Source: Nocardioides sp. QY071 (lineage in GTDB: Bacteria > Actinomycetota > Actinomycetes > Propionibacteriales > Nocardioidaceae). Taken from it: DNA of 64,000 nucleotides. Position 1 is the stretch's first letter, and the number at the start of each line of letters is the position of its first letter. The position numbers and the translations under genes were made by a program. Shown here in pieces: positions 5,020 through 10,417 of this stretch. The notes below the pieces were generated by a model. That model ran no database searches. It was not told the origin of the DNA and saw only the letters and a list, made by a program, of their open reading frames with translations. The DNA lies in NCBI RefSeq assembly GCF_029961765.1, contig NZ_CP124681.1:186001-250000 (forward strand). The letters are read 5' to 3'.

Positions 5020-5211
5020 GACGGGTTCCTTCCGGGGAGCCGCGGGAGTGCCGCGAGGGGTGATGGGGTGTTCGGGGGGCGCTGGAAGGAGGAGGCGCCG
5101 GGGCGTCGCGGTGATACCGGGAATCTCGACGTATCAACGGTGCTGGCTCGCGGGTCCGATGTGCGGGACGATGCATCCGCAAGCTTCCGCGTCACGGGAA
5201 GGGGGTCGGGT

Positions 5212-5784
5212 GTGGACGTCGACTCACCGCTGTCAGCGCTCGTCCCCGCGGCGCGGGAAGGAGATCAGCATGCATGGGATGCGATCGTGGACCGCTTCCT
5301 CCCGCTGGTGGATGCGATCATCCGCGGCCACCGGCTCTCGGAGGCCGACGGTGACGACGTCAGCCAGACCGTCTGGCTGCGCCTCGTCGAGCACCTCGGC
5401 GACCTGCGCGAGCCCGCGGCGCTCCCCGGCTGGATCCGTACGACGACCCGCAACGAGTGCCTGCGACTGCTCTCGGCCCGCGGCCGGGTGCGCCCGGTCG
5501 ACCCGCAGGACGCCTCCGGCCTCGACGCGGTCGTCGACGACGCCGCCGGCACCGACCTGCTCGCGGCCGAGAGCCGCCAGCTGCTCCGCGAGGCCCTCGC
5601 CGCGCTCCCCGAGGCCCGCCGGGCGCTGCTCCTGCTCCTCCTCGCCGACCCACCCGTCGGCTACGAGGAGATCAGCCGCCGCCTCGGCATCCCCGTCGGC
5701 AGCATCGGCCCGACCCGCGCCCGCGCGCTCGAGCAGCTGCGTCGCACCCCCGCACTGCGCCGACTGGTGGAGGTGACCCCGTGA
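5212..5784 (+). CDS. ECF-like sigma-70 family sigma factor
   Basis: A 190-residue protein. Region 2 lies at about residues 20-85 (FLPLVDAIIRGHRLSEADGD, then SQTVWLRLVEHLGDLREPAA) and region 4 at about 125-180 (LPEARRALLLLLLADPPVGY, then EEISRRLGIPVGSIGPTRAR). The region between is short, as in extracytoplasmic-function sigma factors. GTG at 5212 is chosen because AAGGGGG lies about 10 nt upstream; an in-frame GTG at 5161 is an alternative. Its stop overlaps the next gene by 4 bp (GTGA), so the two are translationally coupled. It probably directs expression of the CHAT/S8 genes alongside, but target promoters were not identified. Confidence 0.87.
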   Translation: MDVDSPLSALVPAAREGDQHAWDAIVDRFLPLVDAIIRGHRLSEADGDDVSQTVWLRLVEHLGDLREPAALPGWIRTTTRNECLRLLSARGRVRPVDPQDASGLDAVVDDAAGTDLLAAESRQLLREALAALPEARRALLLLLLADPPVGYEEISRRLGIPVGSIGPTRARALEQLRRTPALRRLVEVTP

Positions 5785-6257
5785 CCGGTCCTCTGGACGA
5801 CGACGAGCTGATGACCCTGCTCGGCGAGGCGGTCGCCGAGGAGGCAGCCGTCAGTGACCGCCGGCGTACGGCGGCCCGCGCCGCCTTCACCTGGCGCTCC
5901 GTCGACGCCGAGCTGGCCGAGCTGCTCCACGACTCCGCCCTCGACGCCGGCGCCGCCGTCCGCTCCGGCGCCGGTGAGGGGGGCGAGCCGCGCACCTTGT
6001 CCTTCGGCCACAGCGGCCTGACCCTCGAGATCGAGGTGGACGGCGAGACCCTGCTCGGCCAGGTGATCGGCACCGGCTCCGCCGCCTCGGCCGTGGAGCC
6101 CGCCTCCGTCCTCCTCGAGCGCCCCGAGGCCGACGCGTTGAGTGCCGAGGCGGACGCCGCCGGCTTCTTCCGGCTCGAGGGGGTCCGGGCCGGGACGGTG
6201 CGGTTCGTGGTCGAGCAGGGCGGGTGGTCGCTCACCACGCCGTGGGTGACGCTGTAG
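5781..6257 (+). CDS. Protein of unknown function coupled to the sigma factor
   Basis: A 158-residue protein whose start overlaps the sigma-factor stop. The acidic N-terminus (about 1-35) leads into a helix with AAFTWRSVDAELAELLHDSA. The rest looks like a beta-rich domain (LTLEIEVDGETLLGQVIG; GFFRLEGVRAGTVRFVVE) ending in TTPWVTL. There is no membrane helix and no HxxxCxxC zinc motif, so it is not a typical anti-sigma factor, although the position is where one would lie. From memory, similar proteins accompany sigma and CHAT genes in other actinobacteria. The function is unknown; a regulator or substrate of the system is possible. Confidence 0.65.
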   Translation: MTGPLDDDELMTLLGEAVAEEAAVSDRRRTAARAAFTWRSVDAELAELLHDSALDAGAAVRSGAGEGGEPRTLSFGHSGLTLEIEVDGETLLGQVIGTGSAASAVEPASVLLERPEADALSAEADAAGFFRLEGVRAGTVRFVVEQGGWSLTTPWVTL

Positions 6258-6342: not shown

Positions 6343-7773
6343 TCAGGTCAGCGGGCCGACGACCTTGATGGCCCCGCCTCGCGGGTCGGTACGGGATGTG
6401 GCGGTGGCGAGCACGTCCGTCCACGCCTCCCTCGCCGACTGACCGGTCTCCCGCATCCGCGCGGCGATCAGCCCGGTGACGACCGGCGTGGAGAAGGACG
6501 TCCCACTCCACTGCGCCAGCCCGTCGAACGTGCGGACCTCGCCGATGTTCGGCGGCTCGTAGCAGGTGTAGCTCCCCTTCGGGAAGGCGTTGACGTGGTT
6601 GCGACCCCGCGCATAGACACTGACCCAGTCGCCGACGTTGGAGAAGTCCGAGACGCCGGCATCGGGATCGACGGAGCCGACCGAAACCACCCATGGGTAC
6701 TGCGTCGCGAACGCCGCCGGCCAGAACGGCTCGCTGCTGGCGTCGTTGCCAGCCGCGGCCACGATCAGTACGTCGTCGCGCTCGTCGAGCTTGTGGTTCT
6801 GGGCGAGCTGGACCAGGGACAGCATCGGATGGCCACCACGGGTGTGGGTGCCGGCCGAGATGCTGATCAGCTGGGGCGGGTCGTCGTCGTGGAGGGCGTC
6901 ATCCAACTGACGGCAGATCCGCGACTCGTAGACGGCTCCGCCGTGGACCAGGGCGCCCTCGACCTCGACCCGGGTCTCCGGGGCGATGCAGCTGATGACA
7001 CCCGCGACGAAGGTGCCATGCCCCGCGTACGGGTGGATCGCGGCAGGGTTAACCGATTCCTCGTCGGCAGCGTCGGCGAAGATGTCGTCCGCCTCGAGCC
7101 AGGGGGACGTCGTGCTGCCGACGGCCGCAGTCCACAGACCCGTGTCGACGACCGAGACGCGCACCTTCCGATCTGCCGGCACCTCGTGGCGTGACTTCGA
7201 CTGCGGCGGCCAGGGCTGGGGCAGCCTCTGGCGGGGCACCTCCGGCTCGGTCGCCGGGCAGAAGAAGCCCTTGGTGGTGACGTAGACGACGTGGTCGGGC
7301 GTGATGGTGCCCCGCTCGACGACCTGCTCGCGCTCGAGCTCGTCGAGGGTCGCGAGGACGTCGTCCTGCTTGTCGTTACGCCGGGGCAGGGACACGTCGA
7401 CCAGTCCGTCCGTCAGCCGCTCGCCCTCGCCCAGCTCGCCGTCGAACCGGTCTCGGTTCTTGTCGGAGGCGAAGTAGTCGCGCAGCCGCGGCACCAGCTC
7501 GTCGGGCACGAGAGCGTGGCCGCGGCGGTAGAGGTAGGTGACGTCGGCGTCGTCGCGCGGCGGCCGGTTGCCCTTGGCCGGGGCTCCGGAGACGTCCTCG
7601 AGGGCGGCCCGGATGACGCCGACCTGGATGCGGAGCCGTTCGGCAGCCAGCTTGTCCTGGGCGTCCGGCCGGCTGACATCGGGACGGTGGGGGTCCGGTC
7701 GGCCGTGACCGAGCCGGCGCAGGATGCCGCGCAGGACCGAGAGGGGCAGACCGGGGCGCTGGGGGTCGTTCAC
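6343..7773 (-). CDS. Cytosolic S8 (subtilisin-like) serine protease
   Basis: A 476-residue protein with an S8 catalytic domain from about residue 200. It shows Asp210 (SVVDTGLW), His252 (YAGHGTFVAGV), oxyanion Asn343 (AAAGND) and Ser426 (SGTSFSTP), so the protease should be active. Residues 1-200 are a charged N-terminal region, partly helical, unlike a classical I9 propeptide, and there is no signal peptide. This implies an intracellular protease. The GTG start at 7773 has GAGGAG 5 nt upstream; upstream in-frame starts lack one. It is divergent from the TPR-CHAT gene with 106 bp between, which suggests joint control and a shared pathway. Confidence 0.88.
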   Translation of the reverse strand: MNDPQRPGLPLSVLRGILRRLGHGRPDPHRPDVSRPDAQDKLAAERLRIQVGVIRAALEDVSGAPAKGNRPPRDDADVTYLYRRGHALVPDELVPRLRDYFASDKNRDRFDGELGEGERLTDGLVDVSLPRRNDKQDDVLATLDELEREQVVERGTITPDHVVYVTTKGFFCPATEPEVPRQRLPQPWPPQSKSRHEVPADRKVRVSVVDTGLWTAAVGSTTSPWLEADDIFADAADEESVNPAAIHPYAGHGTFVAGVISCIAPETRVEVEGALVHGGAVYESRICRQLDDALHDDDPPQLISISAGTHTRGGHPMLSLVQLAQNHKLDERDDVLIVAAAGNDASSEPFWPAAFATQYPWVVSVGSVDPDAGVSDFSNVGDWVSVYARGRNHVNAFPKGSYTCYEPPNIGEVRTFDGLAQWSGTSFSTPVVTGLIAARMRETGQSAREAWTDVLATATSRTDPRGGAIKVVGPLT

Positions 7774-7879
7774 GGGCACTCCTCGGAGGCTGAACTGGCG
7801 GTCGGCGCCGCCGTCGGCGCTAACGTAGACCTGCGCGGCGACCGCCGTAAAGCACCTGAACACCGCAGCGAGGCGGCCC

Positions 7880-10417
7880 GTGGAGGAACTGCTGCAGCTG
7901 GCCATCGACGACCCGGAGCGGGGCCGTCGGCAGGCCGAGGACCTGCTGACGAGCTCGGCGGACCCGGCCGTGTTGTCCTACGCCCACCAGTGCCTGGGCA
8001 TCGTGGCGCGGGACGCCGGACAGGCGGAGCTCGCTGACACGCATCTGCGGGCCGGGCTCCGCGCAGCTCAGCTGGCGAGAGACGCCGACCGCGAGCGCGA
8101 CGTGCGCGCGTCCTACGGGACGGCTCTGGCGTGTGCTGGCCGGTCGCGTCAAGGACTGGTCCAGCTGCAGAGGGCGATGGCCGGCGCTAGTGGCCACGTC
8201 GCCCCACGGATCGCCGTGCGGATGGCAGGAGTGCTCGCCACCACGGGACGCTTCGCGGACTCGGCCGCGGTGCTCCGCGACGCGGCCGCAAGCTTCTCCG
8301 CGCTCGACGACTCTGTGTGGGAGGCCCGGGCGCGGATCTGGCTGGCTCACACGCTGCTCCACCTCGGACAGCTGGACGACGCCCAGGAGGAGGCCGAGTC
8401 GGCAGGGCGACTGTACGACGGTCCGGAGACCGTCTGGGAGCGGATCTCGGTCCTGGAGAACCTCGCCGACATCGCTGCCGCCCGGGGCGACCTGGTGCGC
8501 AGCCTCCGCCTCGGTGCCGAGGCCGCTCGCTTCTGCGCCGAGCTCGGCGTCGAGCCGCGGGCCGAGCTGGTCGGCCAGAACGCGAGCGTCCATCTCGCGG
8601 CCGGGCTGGCCGACGACGCAGCGGCTGTCCTCGGGCAGCGGCTCGCGACCACCTCCCTGACCGAGATGGACCGTGCTGAGCTGCAGCTGCTCCGTGCTGA
8701 TGCCCTGCTCGCCGCGGGCCGTCCGCCCGACGCGATCGAGGAGGCCCGGGCAGCACGGCGCGGCTTCGAGCACGCCGGACGCACCTGGTATGCCCGGCGC
8801 GCTCAGGCGACCCTGCTGCAGGCTCGGGTGCGCGCGGGGGAGGTCCGCGGCGCGGCCGCAGAAGCTCGGGGTGTGGCCGAGGCACTCGACACCGAGGGAG
8901 CACCCGAGGCACCCCTCGCCCTCACCCTCGCCGGCCGGCTCGCCCGCGGCGCCGACCGCATCGATCTCTGGACCCGAGCCGCGTCGTACCGCCACCACCC
9001 CAACGCCCTCGTCCGCGCCGCCGCCTGGCACGCCCAGGGCCTGGCCCGCGAGGAGACCCACGACCGGGGCGGTGTCCTCCGGGCGGCGGCAGCCGGACTC
9101 GACGCGATCGACGAGCACCGGCGCCTGATCGGCTCCTCCGAGCTCAGGGCGCTGGCGACGACCCACGGACGCGAGCTGACCACCATCGCCCTGCGCCATG
9201 CGGCATCCGACGCAAGGACGCTGCTGCGGTGGAGCGAGCGGACCCGGGCGACGGCCCTGGCGCAGCCGCCGGCGACCTCGGACGCGGCGACCATCCCGGC
9301 CTCGCTCGCGGCGCTGCGCGACAACGGGCGCCAGCTGGCCGAGGCCCGACAGGAGGGTACGCCGACCGAGGAGCTCGAGCGGGAGCGGCGGCGGCTGGAG
9401 CGGGCGGTGCGGGCGGAGAGCCACACGCTGTCGGCGACGACGGCCACCCAGCAGCGGCCCACGAGTGTCGAGGAGATCGTCGCGGCGACCGGCGAGACCT
9501 GCCTGGTGGAGCTGGTCGACGTCGACGGGAGCCTGCACGTCGTGGTCGCCCACGCCGGCAAGGTACGACGCCGGGTCGCCGGCACGACGTCCGAGATCGC
9601 CGCCCTGCTCGGCCCGGCAGGGATGCTGCTGCGCCGGGCGGCCCGGGGCCGGCCGGCCGACACCGCCACCATCGGGCGGTCCCTGCAGCAGGCCGTCCTC
9701 GGCGACGCGGTCCGACTGCTCCCCGACGCCCCTGTGACCCTCGCCCCGACGGCCCGCCTGCACGGCCTGGCCTGGTCCCTGCTCCCGGCCCTCCAGGACC
9801 GGCCGTTCGCGGTGGTCCCCTCGGCCGGCCAGTGGCTGCGGGCCCGCGCCACGCCCGCCCCGCAGCAGGCCGGCACCGTGCTCGTGGCCGGTCCGGCCCT
9901 GGCGAGCGGCGGCGCGGAGGTGCCGGTCCTCGCCGAGCGCCACCCGGACGCCGTCCTGCTCGACGGGCCGCGGGCCACGCTCGAGGCGGTGCTGGCCCAC
10001 CTCGACGGCGCCGGTCTGGTGCACCTCGCCGCGCACGGCCGGTTCCGGGCCGACAGCCCGCTGTTCTCGGCGCTCGACCTGGCCGACGGCCCGCTGACGG
10101 TCCACGACCTGGAGCGGGTCCCGCGGGCGCCGTACCGCGTCGTGCTCTCCGCCTGCGAGTCCGGCGTGCTCGCGCCGGTCGGGGCCGAGGAGCTGCTCGG
10201 GCTGGCGGCGGCGCTCTTCTCGCTCGGCACGGCCGGGCTGGTGTGCAGCGTCGGCGAGGTCAACGACGACGCGACCGCCGACCTGATGGTCGGCCTCCAT
10301 GCCGCGCTCGCCGACGGCAGCGACCCGGCGACCGCCCTGTGCGAGGTACGCCGCCGAGCAGCGGGCGATCCGGTCGCGGCCGGCACCGCGGCGGCGTTCC
10401 TCGCGCTGGGCGTGTGA
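7880..10417 (+). CDS. TPR-CHAT caspase-like protease
   Basis: An 845-residue protein. Residues about 20-350 are a helical TPR-type array rich in Ala/Leu (for example SYAHQCLGIVARDAGQAELA and RIWLAHTLLHLGQLDDAQEE). A middle linker with charged helices precedes a C-terminal CHAT domain at about 560-845. The caspase-type dyad is complete: His719 in HLAAHGRF and Cys759 in LSACESG. The family is known from HetF-type and other bacterial caspase-like effectors. GTG at 7880 has GAGG 6 nt upstream. It is divergent from the S8 protease and close to the sigma-factor pair. The activator and substrate are unknown; one protease may process the other. Confidence 0.87.
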   Translation: MEELLQLAIDDPERGRRQAEDLLTSSADPAVLSYAHQCLGIVARDAGQAELADTHLRAGLRAAQLARDADRERDVRASYGTALACAGRSRQGLVQLQRAMAGASGHVAPRIAVRMAGVLATTGRFADSAAVLRDAAASFSALDDSVWEARARIWLAHTLLHLGQLDDAQEEAESAGRLYDGPETVWERISVLENLADIAAARGDLVRSLRLGAEAARFCAELGVEPRAELVGQNASVHLAAGLADDAAAVLGQRLATTSLTEMDRAELQLLRADALLAAGRPPDAIEEARAARRGFEHAGRTWYARRAQATLLQARVRAGEVRGAAAEARGVAEALDTEGAPEAPLALTLAGRLARGADRIDLWTRAASYRHHPNALVRAAAWHAQGLAREETHDRGGVLRAAAAGLDAIDEHRRLIGSSELRALATTHGRELTTIALRHAASDARTLLRWSERTRATALAQPPATSDAATIPASLAALRDNGRQLAEARQEGTPTEELERERRRLERAVRAESHTLSATTATQQRPTSVEEIVAATGETCLVELVDVDGSLHVVVAHAGKVRRRVAGTTSEIAALLGPAGMLLRRAARGRPADTATIGRSLQQAVLGDAVRLLPDAPVTLAPTARLHGLAWSLLPALQDRPFAVVPSAGQWLRARATPAPQQAGTVLVAGPALASGGAEVPVLAERHPDAVLLDGPRATLEAVLAHLDGAGLVHLAAHGRFRADSPLFSALDLADGPLTVHDLERVPRAPYRVVLSACESGVLAPVGAEELLGLAAALFSLGTAGLVCSVGEVNDDATADLMVGLHAALADGSDPATALCEVRRRAAGDPVAAGTAAAFLALGV

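Follow-up and report, generated by a model that had tools for sequence, protein, structure and literature searches.

The gene at positions 5781 to 6257 of a 64,000-nucleotide stretch of Nocardioides sp. QY071 DNA (NCBI RefSeq assembly GCF_029961765.1, contig NZ_CP124681.1, forward-strand positions 186,001 to 250,000; hereafter the window) directly follows a gene for an extracytoplasmic function (ECF) sigma factor, and its 158-residue product, which we refer to as the partner, is a member of a conserved actinobacterial family for which there is no curated model. The window holds all four genes of a set that recurs in relatives: the sigma factor, the partner, an S8 subtilase and a TPR-CHAT protein, the last two being protease families. 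This module behaves as two units, sigma plus partner and CHAT plus S8, and the partner belongs with the sigma factor. The interpretation we favor, whose chances we judge to be about even, is that the partner regulates the co-encoded sigma factor as a soluble protein without enzymatic activity, most likely as an anti-sigma factor, and that CHAT/S8 relieves its effect. The four genes and the parts of the partner are as follows.

5212 to 5784, plus strand: ECF sigma factor, 190 aa; start set by homology; TIGR02937 at 2e-16, Sigma70_r2 and r4_2 above the Pfam cut-offs.
5781 to 6257, plus strand: partner protein, 158 aa, GTG start.
5799 to 5948, plus strand: predicted helical N-terminal region of the partner, with helices at 7-21 and 26-56, which may be where sigma binds; block means of 50-80 in AlphaFold's predicted local distance difference test (pLDDT); covaries with sigma, with exceptions.
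5949 to 5990, plus strand: predicted flexible linker (residues 57-70) with conserved Val60-Arg61 (5958-5963); pLDDT below 50 at residues 57-60.
5991 to 6254, plus strand: predicted C-terminal Ig/Fn3-like beta sandwich, CarboxypepD_reg-like; pLDDT block means 92-97 over residues 71-158.
Within 5781 to 6257, plus strand: TTPWVTL, the C-terminal end of the partner, from the translation.
6343 to 7773, minus strand: S8 subtilase with an N-terminal extension, about 476 aa; start set by homology, frame open to 7905; PF00082 at 2.1e-23.
7880 to 10417, plus strand: TPR-CHAT protein, 845 aa; PF12770 at 4.1e-27.

A first-pass annotation made from the sequence alone had placed this protein in the position of an anti-sigma factor, noting a 4-bp overlap with the sigma stop, and the coordinates bear this out, as the two genes share positions 5781-5784 and the sigma stop codon TGA lies at 5782-5784. 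The same overlap was counted in 57 of 73 relatives, a figure biased by the procedure, in which a script picked as the partner start whichever candidate lay closest to a 4-bp offset. Also correct was the observation that the protein lacks a membrane helix and an HxxxCxxC zinc motif: the window partner has no Cys and two His, its highest 19-residue hydropathy is 1.02, and among 74 family members the highest value is 1.48, with none above 1.6, no membrane-helix-like hydrophobic stretch by this measure and no copy of the motif (0/74). Neither the zinc motif of the zinc anti-sigma (ZAS) class nor the transmembrane helix of the membrane-bound class I is thus present, a class assignment to be read in the knowledge that soluble members of these groups exist. 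The window genome encodes a single partner copy, the next best match having an E value of 0.02.

Conserved positions of the family include L48, D51 and S52, which lie where helix 2 ends, the linker residue R61, and R71, G93, G128 and W155. L48, D51 and S52 are invariant across the 74 members and Arg61 is kept in 73; a further 20 loci, more distant and described below, gave 23 matches, of which 21 keep Arg61, 16 each D51 and S52, and 15 R71. Since Arg61 is nearly invariant and lies in a predicted flexible linker, Val60-Arg61 could be a motif for cleavage or docking, in a linker that is hard to align. Translation of the open reading frame at 5781-6257 likewise confirms the TTPWVTL ending remarked on in the first-pass annotation; we rejected a role for this ending as a degron or tag, as the Trp at position -4 is kept in 74/74 members and forms part of the end of the sandwich.

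The AlphaFold model of the partner, built with 74 sequences (mean pLDDT 82.7), predicts a two-part fold of low-confidence helices followed by a confident beta sandwich, in agreement with the earlier expectation of a small beta domain in the C-terminal half. Foldseek comparison of the model with the PDB found nothing at an E value of 0.001 or below. VIA-align grouped the sandwich with Ig/Fn3-like folds (highest Z 9.8, 2.3 Å over 88 residues; the top neighbor by Z is the copper protein CrdA), with aligned rows spanning mainly residues 77-158, that is, the sandwich rather than the helices. The Ig/Fn3-like fold is so common that a Z of 9.8 says little about function.

Profile searches gave no match to a curated family above cut-off in Pfam, NCBIfam or PADLOC, which upholds the earlier description of an unknown partner that is not a recognizable anti-sigma factor, and they returned no confident match to an unrelated enzyme family. 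A search against the sequences of solved structures yielded nothing above threshold or convincing. The partner shows sub-threshold similarity to CarboxypepD_reg (PF13620) over residues 91-153 (E 1.5e-4, 22.5 bits against a cut-off of 32.3), a domain that by its name is regulatory-like rather than catalytic and outside which the helical half of the partner falls. Matches at E 0.01 or better were made by the 74 members to CarboxypepD_reg (18 members) and RsiG (one) in Pfam and, in a single match, to a NikL transporter model in NCBIfam, with no catalytic domain among them; the window partner alone gave a sub-threshold NCBIfam match to hydroxyethylthiazole kinase (E 0.072, 12.5 against 180 bits). 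RsiG, a c-di-GMP-dependent anti-sigma factor, was considered and rejected, scoring 17.7 bits against a cut-off of 27 and being matched by 3/21 members at E 0.1 and by 1/74 at E 0.01.

The partner is more than a chance occurrence, being matched in 21 of 57 other sampled genomes. Flanks were taken, as 18-kb stretches, for 20 of the 24 places outside the window at which a partner was found. In all 20 the sigma gene adjoins the partner gene and shares its strand, and the 18 kb also hold S8 and CHAT genes, with varying gene orders and orientations. An alignment of the CHAT proteins from these loci was then used to scan named genomes, keeping the best 80 of at least 564 confirmed relatives, a sample drawn from the nearer CHAT relatives. 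Among these 80 loci, at least 7 of which recur from the first 20, a partner is present in 74, a sigma match in 74, S8 in 78 and all four in 73, and the genera represented include Nocardioides, Pimelobacter, Kribbella, Streptomyces, Actinoplanes and Streptosporangiales-type organisms. Of the seven loci lacking the full set, five (L061, L079, L080, L086 and L126) end at contig ends, as does L098, which has a partner and no sigma. The seventh, a full-length locus of Herbidospora mongoliensis (L116), has CHAT and S8, no partner that we could find, and a weak sigma match only at its far edge. With regard to mobile elements, the partner protein had no plasmid match, the DNA of the two genes had no phage match, and no relative of the CHAT protein was confirmed in viral contigs.

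Partner and CHAT also occur together at the level of whole genomes. In 396 Actinomycetota genomes, the window's own included, we found the partner in 50 (profile E 1e-5), CHAT in 47 (profile E 1e-40) and both in 45, the tallies being taken as one draw given their identical genome handles (Fisher p 4.6e-51, a value that ignores the relatedness of the genomes). CHAT occurs without the partner in two genomes (G252 and G294). We chose 20 more distant places for inspection, 18 from other classes and two (L153 and L154) from the window's class. A sigma match adjoins the partner on the same strand in 18/20, the exceptions (L139 and L140) both being in genome G099, and S8 and CHAT are both nearby in 14/20, all but L139, L140, L143, L145, L149 and L156. 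Two of these places are instructive. In G175, which is one contig (L145), and in G219 (L149), the sigma-partner pair stands apart and CHAT and S8 lie together elsewhere, and the only partner found in each genome adjoins sigma. These split loci, together with the adjacency of sigma and partner in 18 of the 20 places, indicate that the module consists of two units and that the partner is tied to sigma. A weak match to another sigma factor (35 bits, L165) lies near the G175 pair. G099 has three partner matches, one of them in a full module, with a weak sigma match on the opposite strand at L140; besides one complete locus, it has two CHAT-S8 pairs whose 18-kb surroundings hold neither sigma nor partner. 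Arrays of two or three partner, two CHAT and two S8 matches, with one sigma match each, occur at L152 and L155, in two genomes that belong to a single genus of another class than the window's.

Evolutionary covariation among the four proteins was assessed from pairwise protein distances per locus, using partial correlations from which the part explained by the other genes had been removed. Over 73 loci the values were 0.59 for sigma-partner, 0.52 for partner-CHAT, 0.34 for S8-CHAT, 0.30 for partner-S8, 0.09 for sigma-CHAT and 0.02 for sigma-S8. With corrected distances and 38 non-redundant loci they were 0.66 for sigma-partner, 0.49 for partner-CHAT, 0.31 for S8-CHAT, 0.30 for partner-S8, 0.015 for sigma-CHAT and -0.17 for sigma-S8. 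Dividing the partner into its two domains gave, for the same 38 loci, 0.77 between sigma and the helical part, 0.44 between the beta part and CHAT, 0.31 between the beta part and S8, and -0.12 between the two parts of the partner themselves; without one divergent clade (30 loci) the first two values were 0.61 and 0.55. The CHAT region that pairs with the beta domain is not stable, the correlation between the beta part and the protease domain being 0.34 in 38 loci and 0.14 in 30. The divergent clade is of Nocardioides (L070, L074-L076, L084, L092, L097, L109, L113-L115 and L119). Its sigma factors have a mean distance of 0.70 to the rest vs 0.48 among the rest, and its partners 0.71 vs 0.60, while its S8 (0.59 vs 0.58) and CHAT proteins (0.57 vs 0.52) hardly stand apart. 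In some subsets of loci, but not in all, the distances thus link sigma to the helical part of the partner and CHAT to the beta part.

Under the interpretation we favor, the N-terminal helices of the partner would grip sigma and its C-terminal beta sandwich would be the part read by the CHAT/S8 protease pair. Triggered by some signal, the TPR-CHAT protein would cut the partner directly, or would activate the S8 subtilase to do so (that CHAT acts before S8 is presumed); the cut would plausibly fall at the flexible linker with its conserved Val-Arg, and cleavage of an inhibitory partner would free the sigma factor.

Several observations weigh against this interpretation. Five of the 50 partner-bearing genomes (G326, G375, G420, G439 and G443) lack CHAT at E 1e-40; in G443 and G439 (L143 and L156) only the TPR portion of the CHAT profile found a match. 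The two partner copies of G099 at L139 and L140 lack an adjoining same-strand sigma of this family, and Pfam recognized no known anti-sigma domain in the partner helices. The covariation varies with the sample: corrected distances over all 73 loci give 0.47 for sigma-partner and 0.25 for sigma-CHAT; 31 Streptomyces-like loci alone give -0.21 for sigma-partner, 0.55 for sigma-CHAT and 0.74 for partner-CHAT; and 61 loci without the divergent clade give a higher value for sigma-S8 (0.49) than for sigma and the helical part (0.39). Shuffling within seven CHAT clusters preserves a mean of 0.72 for sigma and the helical part (3/1000 shuffles reach 0.77) and of 0.40 for the beta part and CHAT (20/1000 reach 0.44), indicating that the pattern rests mostly on a few deep divergences between CHAT clusters, and joint recombination of adjacent genes could mimic the signal between sigma and the helical part. 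In a Nonomuraea locus (L105) sigma and partner lie in one frame, and we modeled the fused product of reading through both genes in place of the complex. From an unpaired alignment with few sigma rows, the model had a mean pLDDT of 68.8, a predicted template modeling score (pTM) of 0.32 and block means of 29-44 for the partner helices, and so offers no confident placement, which speaks neither for nor against binding. The first-pass suggestion of a protease substrate linking sigma to CHAT/S8 is supported in part: gene content, co-occurrence, split loci and covariation favor it indirectly, and the fused sigma-partner prediction was not confident.

The same gene linkage and covariation would fit a partner of the opposite sign, an activator or chaperone that stabilizes sigma or aids its binding to polymerase, with the proteases destroying the partner or sigma to end the response. 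We regard this as unlikely, in part because anti-sigma genes are commonly placed directly after a sigma gene and overlap it by 4 bp. Proteolysis has been proposed to keep such sigma factors inactive (PMC8999054), a point in favor of an activator, but the protease-linked analogues as described, Csx30 and CalpT, are inhibitors. If the partner instead served the protease pair mainly as an adaptor or scaffold, with its sandwich docking CHAT/S8 and its helices bringing sigma as the substrate, it would itself stay uncut. The domain-wise covariation in 38 loci (0.77 for helices with sigma, 0.44 and 0.31 for the beta part with CHAT and S8) suits such a role, and Ig/Fn3-like folds are common binding modules, but a cut, or a docking motif of its own, accounts better for a predicted flexible linker in which Arg61 is almost invariant, and we hold the adaptor to be about as improbable as the activator.

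The CrdA neighbor and the five genomes with a partner and no CHAT at the threshold used could also point to a direct sensor, in which binding of a ligand or metal to the sandwich sets sigma free, and CHAT and S8 are co-regulated outputs. Against this, a protein with no Cys and two His makes a poor metal site, the fold match is little informative, and genomes in which CHAT is remote from the sigma-partner pair still keep it (G175 and G219); a sensor therefore strikes us as quite doubtful. Very improbable, in our estimation, is mere translational coupling of sigma to an unrelated small protein. Fold and sequence alone give no function, which leaves room for such coupling, but in different families and classes the partner remains next to sigma even as gene order changes around them, and it does so in the split genomes as well.

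The S8 gene is convergent with the sigma-partner pair and the CHAT gene is divergent from S8. His719 and Cys759 of CHAT are invariant in 21 sequences, and Asp254, His296 and Ser470 of S8 are invariant in 20 (L030, one of 21, was left out); we take these to be the catalytic residues from general knowledge of the families, and on their invariance in the sampled sets both proteases are probably active. The N-terminal extension of S8 covers roughly residues 46-230 of the 520-aa frame and ends in a conserved CPATEPE just before the catalytic domain. It could be a pro-region removed by CHAT, an order of events that is a guess.

Two elements lie upstream of the sigma gene.

5112 to 5136, strand not assigned: inverted repeat TGATAC-N13-GTATCA, candidate operator.
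5144 to 5172, plus strand: promoter-like element TGGCTC-N15-GGGACGAT, from an alignment of 15 upstream sequences.

The inverted repeat, which looks like the operator of some regulator, has a single occurrence in the genome and none in the control. Of 73 relatives, 12 carry TGATAC/GTATCA half-sites upstream of sigma, namely the Nocardioides-type loci L049-L060; their spacers measure 13, 24, 25, 27 or 34 and are mostly about one helical turn apart. A GACGAT element lies upstream of sigma in 12/73 relatives, and the element at 5144-5172 may serve as a promoter. A regulon search with the promoter-like pattern proved too unspecific for interpretation, with five genome sites, one of them 5144-5172, against one in the control. 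In the S8-CHAT intergenic region (7774-7879) a block, GCTAACGTA-N-GTAAA, precedes CHAT in 9/73 relatives, all of the Nocardioides type. Read towards S8 it resembles a housekeeping-type promoter, approximately TTTACG-N17 or 18-TACGTT, the spacing being judged by eye.

The gene set is already in print, at sentence level: the conserved context of the ECF54 group is described as carboxypeptidase, subtilase and CHAT-domain proteins, and control by proteolysis without an anti-sigma factor has been proposed (PMC8999054). The window and its relatives have this context, with a CarboxypepD_reg-like partner, S8 and CHAT, and their likeness to ECF54 is known here from gene context. Where we differ is over the ECF54 "carboxypeptidase", which in our reading is probably no enzyme but a protein of two parts whose first tie is to sigma. 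Also new here are the division of the module into two units and the partner as a candidate anti-sigma factor or adaptor; in the open-licence literature searched we found no description of the partner family beyond the ECF54 context. If the "carboxypeptidase" is the sigma factor's own regulator, the model for ECF54-type control changes, in a way that is directly testable with a small protein.

Another likeness is to the caspase/EACC2 conflict systems, in which an ECF sigma factor occurs with a TPR (DUF1822) gene and for which a transcriptional output has been proposed (PMC8195603). These share with the window a caspase-like domain, a TPR protein and an ECF sigma factor in one neighborhood, but the passages of PMC8195603 that describe them include no S8 and no comparable sigma partner, and EACC2, TRADD-N and DUF1822 are absent from the Pfam matches of the four window proteins.

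The nearest functional models for the partner, by analogy, are Csx30 and CalpT. Csx30 is cut by the TPR-CHAT protease Csx29 of the type III-E CRISPR system (Craspase), freeing CASP-sigma (PMC10028731), and the likeness extends to an ECF sigma factor, an inhibitor that binds it by its N-terminal part and a TPR-CHAT protease. The PDB chains matched by our CHAT profile are of the Csx29 type, weakly (best E 0.0014); at E values of up to 10, the partner had no match to a solved chain bearing the name Csx30, in a searched set whose inclusion of a Csx30 chain was unchecked. The window module differs in having no CRISPR part in the four-gene unit, in adding S8 as a second protease and in the size of the partner (158 aa vs 565 for Csx30). 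CalpT, in the type III CRISPR Lon system, is likewise an anti-sigma factor whose cleavage releases an ECF sigma factor, CalpS (PMC11417357); its protease CalpL is a Lon-SAVED protein triggered by cyclic tetra-adenylate, and Lon and SAVED are absent from the Pfam, NCBIfam and PADLOC matches of the four window proteins (for sigma, the best 25 NCBIfam matches only). Tentatively, and with rather less than even confidence, we propose that these genes form a CRISPR-free, caspase-like bacterial signaling module that is widespread in Actinomycetota, in which TPR-CHAT would activate S8 and S8 would cut a two-part anti-sigma factor at the Val-Arg linker, releasing the ECF sigma factor. Such a module would supply the anti-sigma factor that ECF54 was thought to lack. 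It would also be the self-contained equivalent of the sigma, anti-sigma and protease parts recruited by type III CRISPR systems, and might be related to the source of those parts. If true, this would place caspase-like protease control of transcription in a CRISPR-free setting in ordinary actinobacteria.
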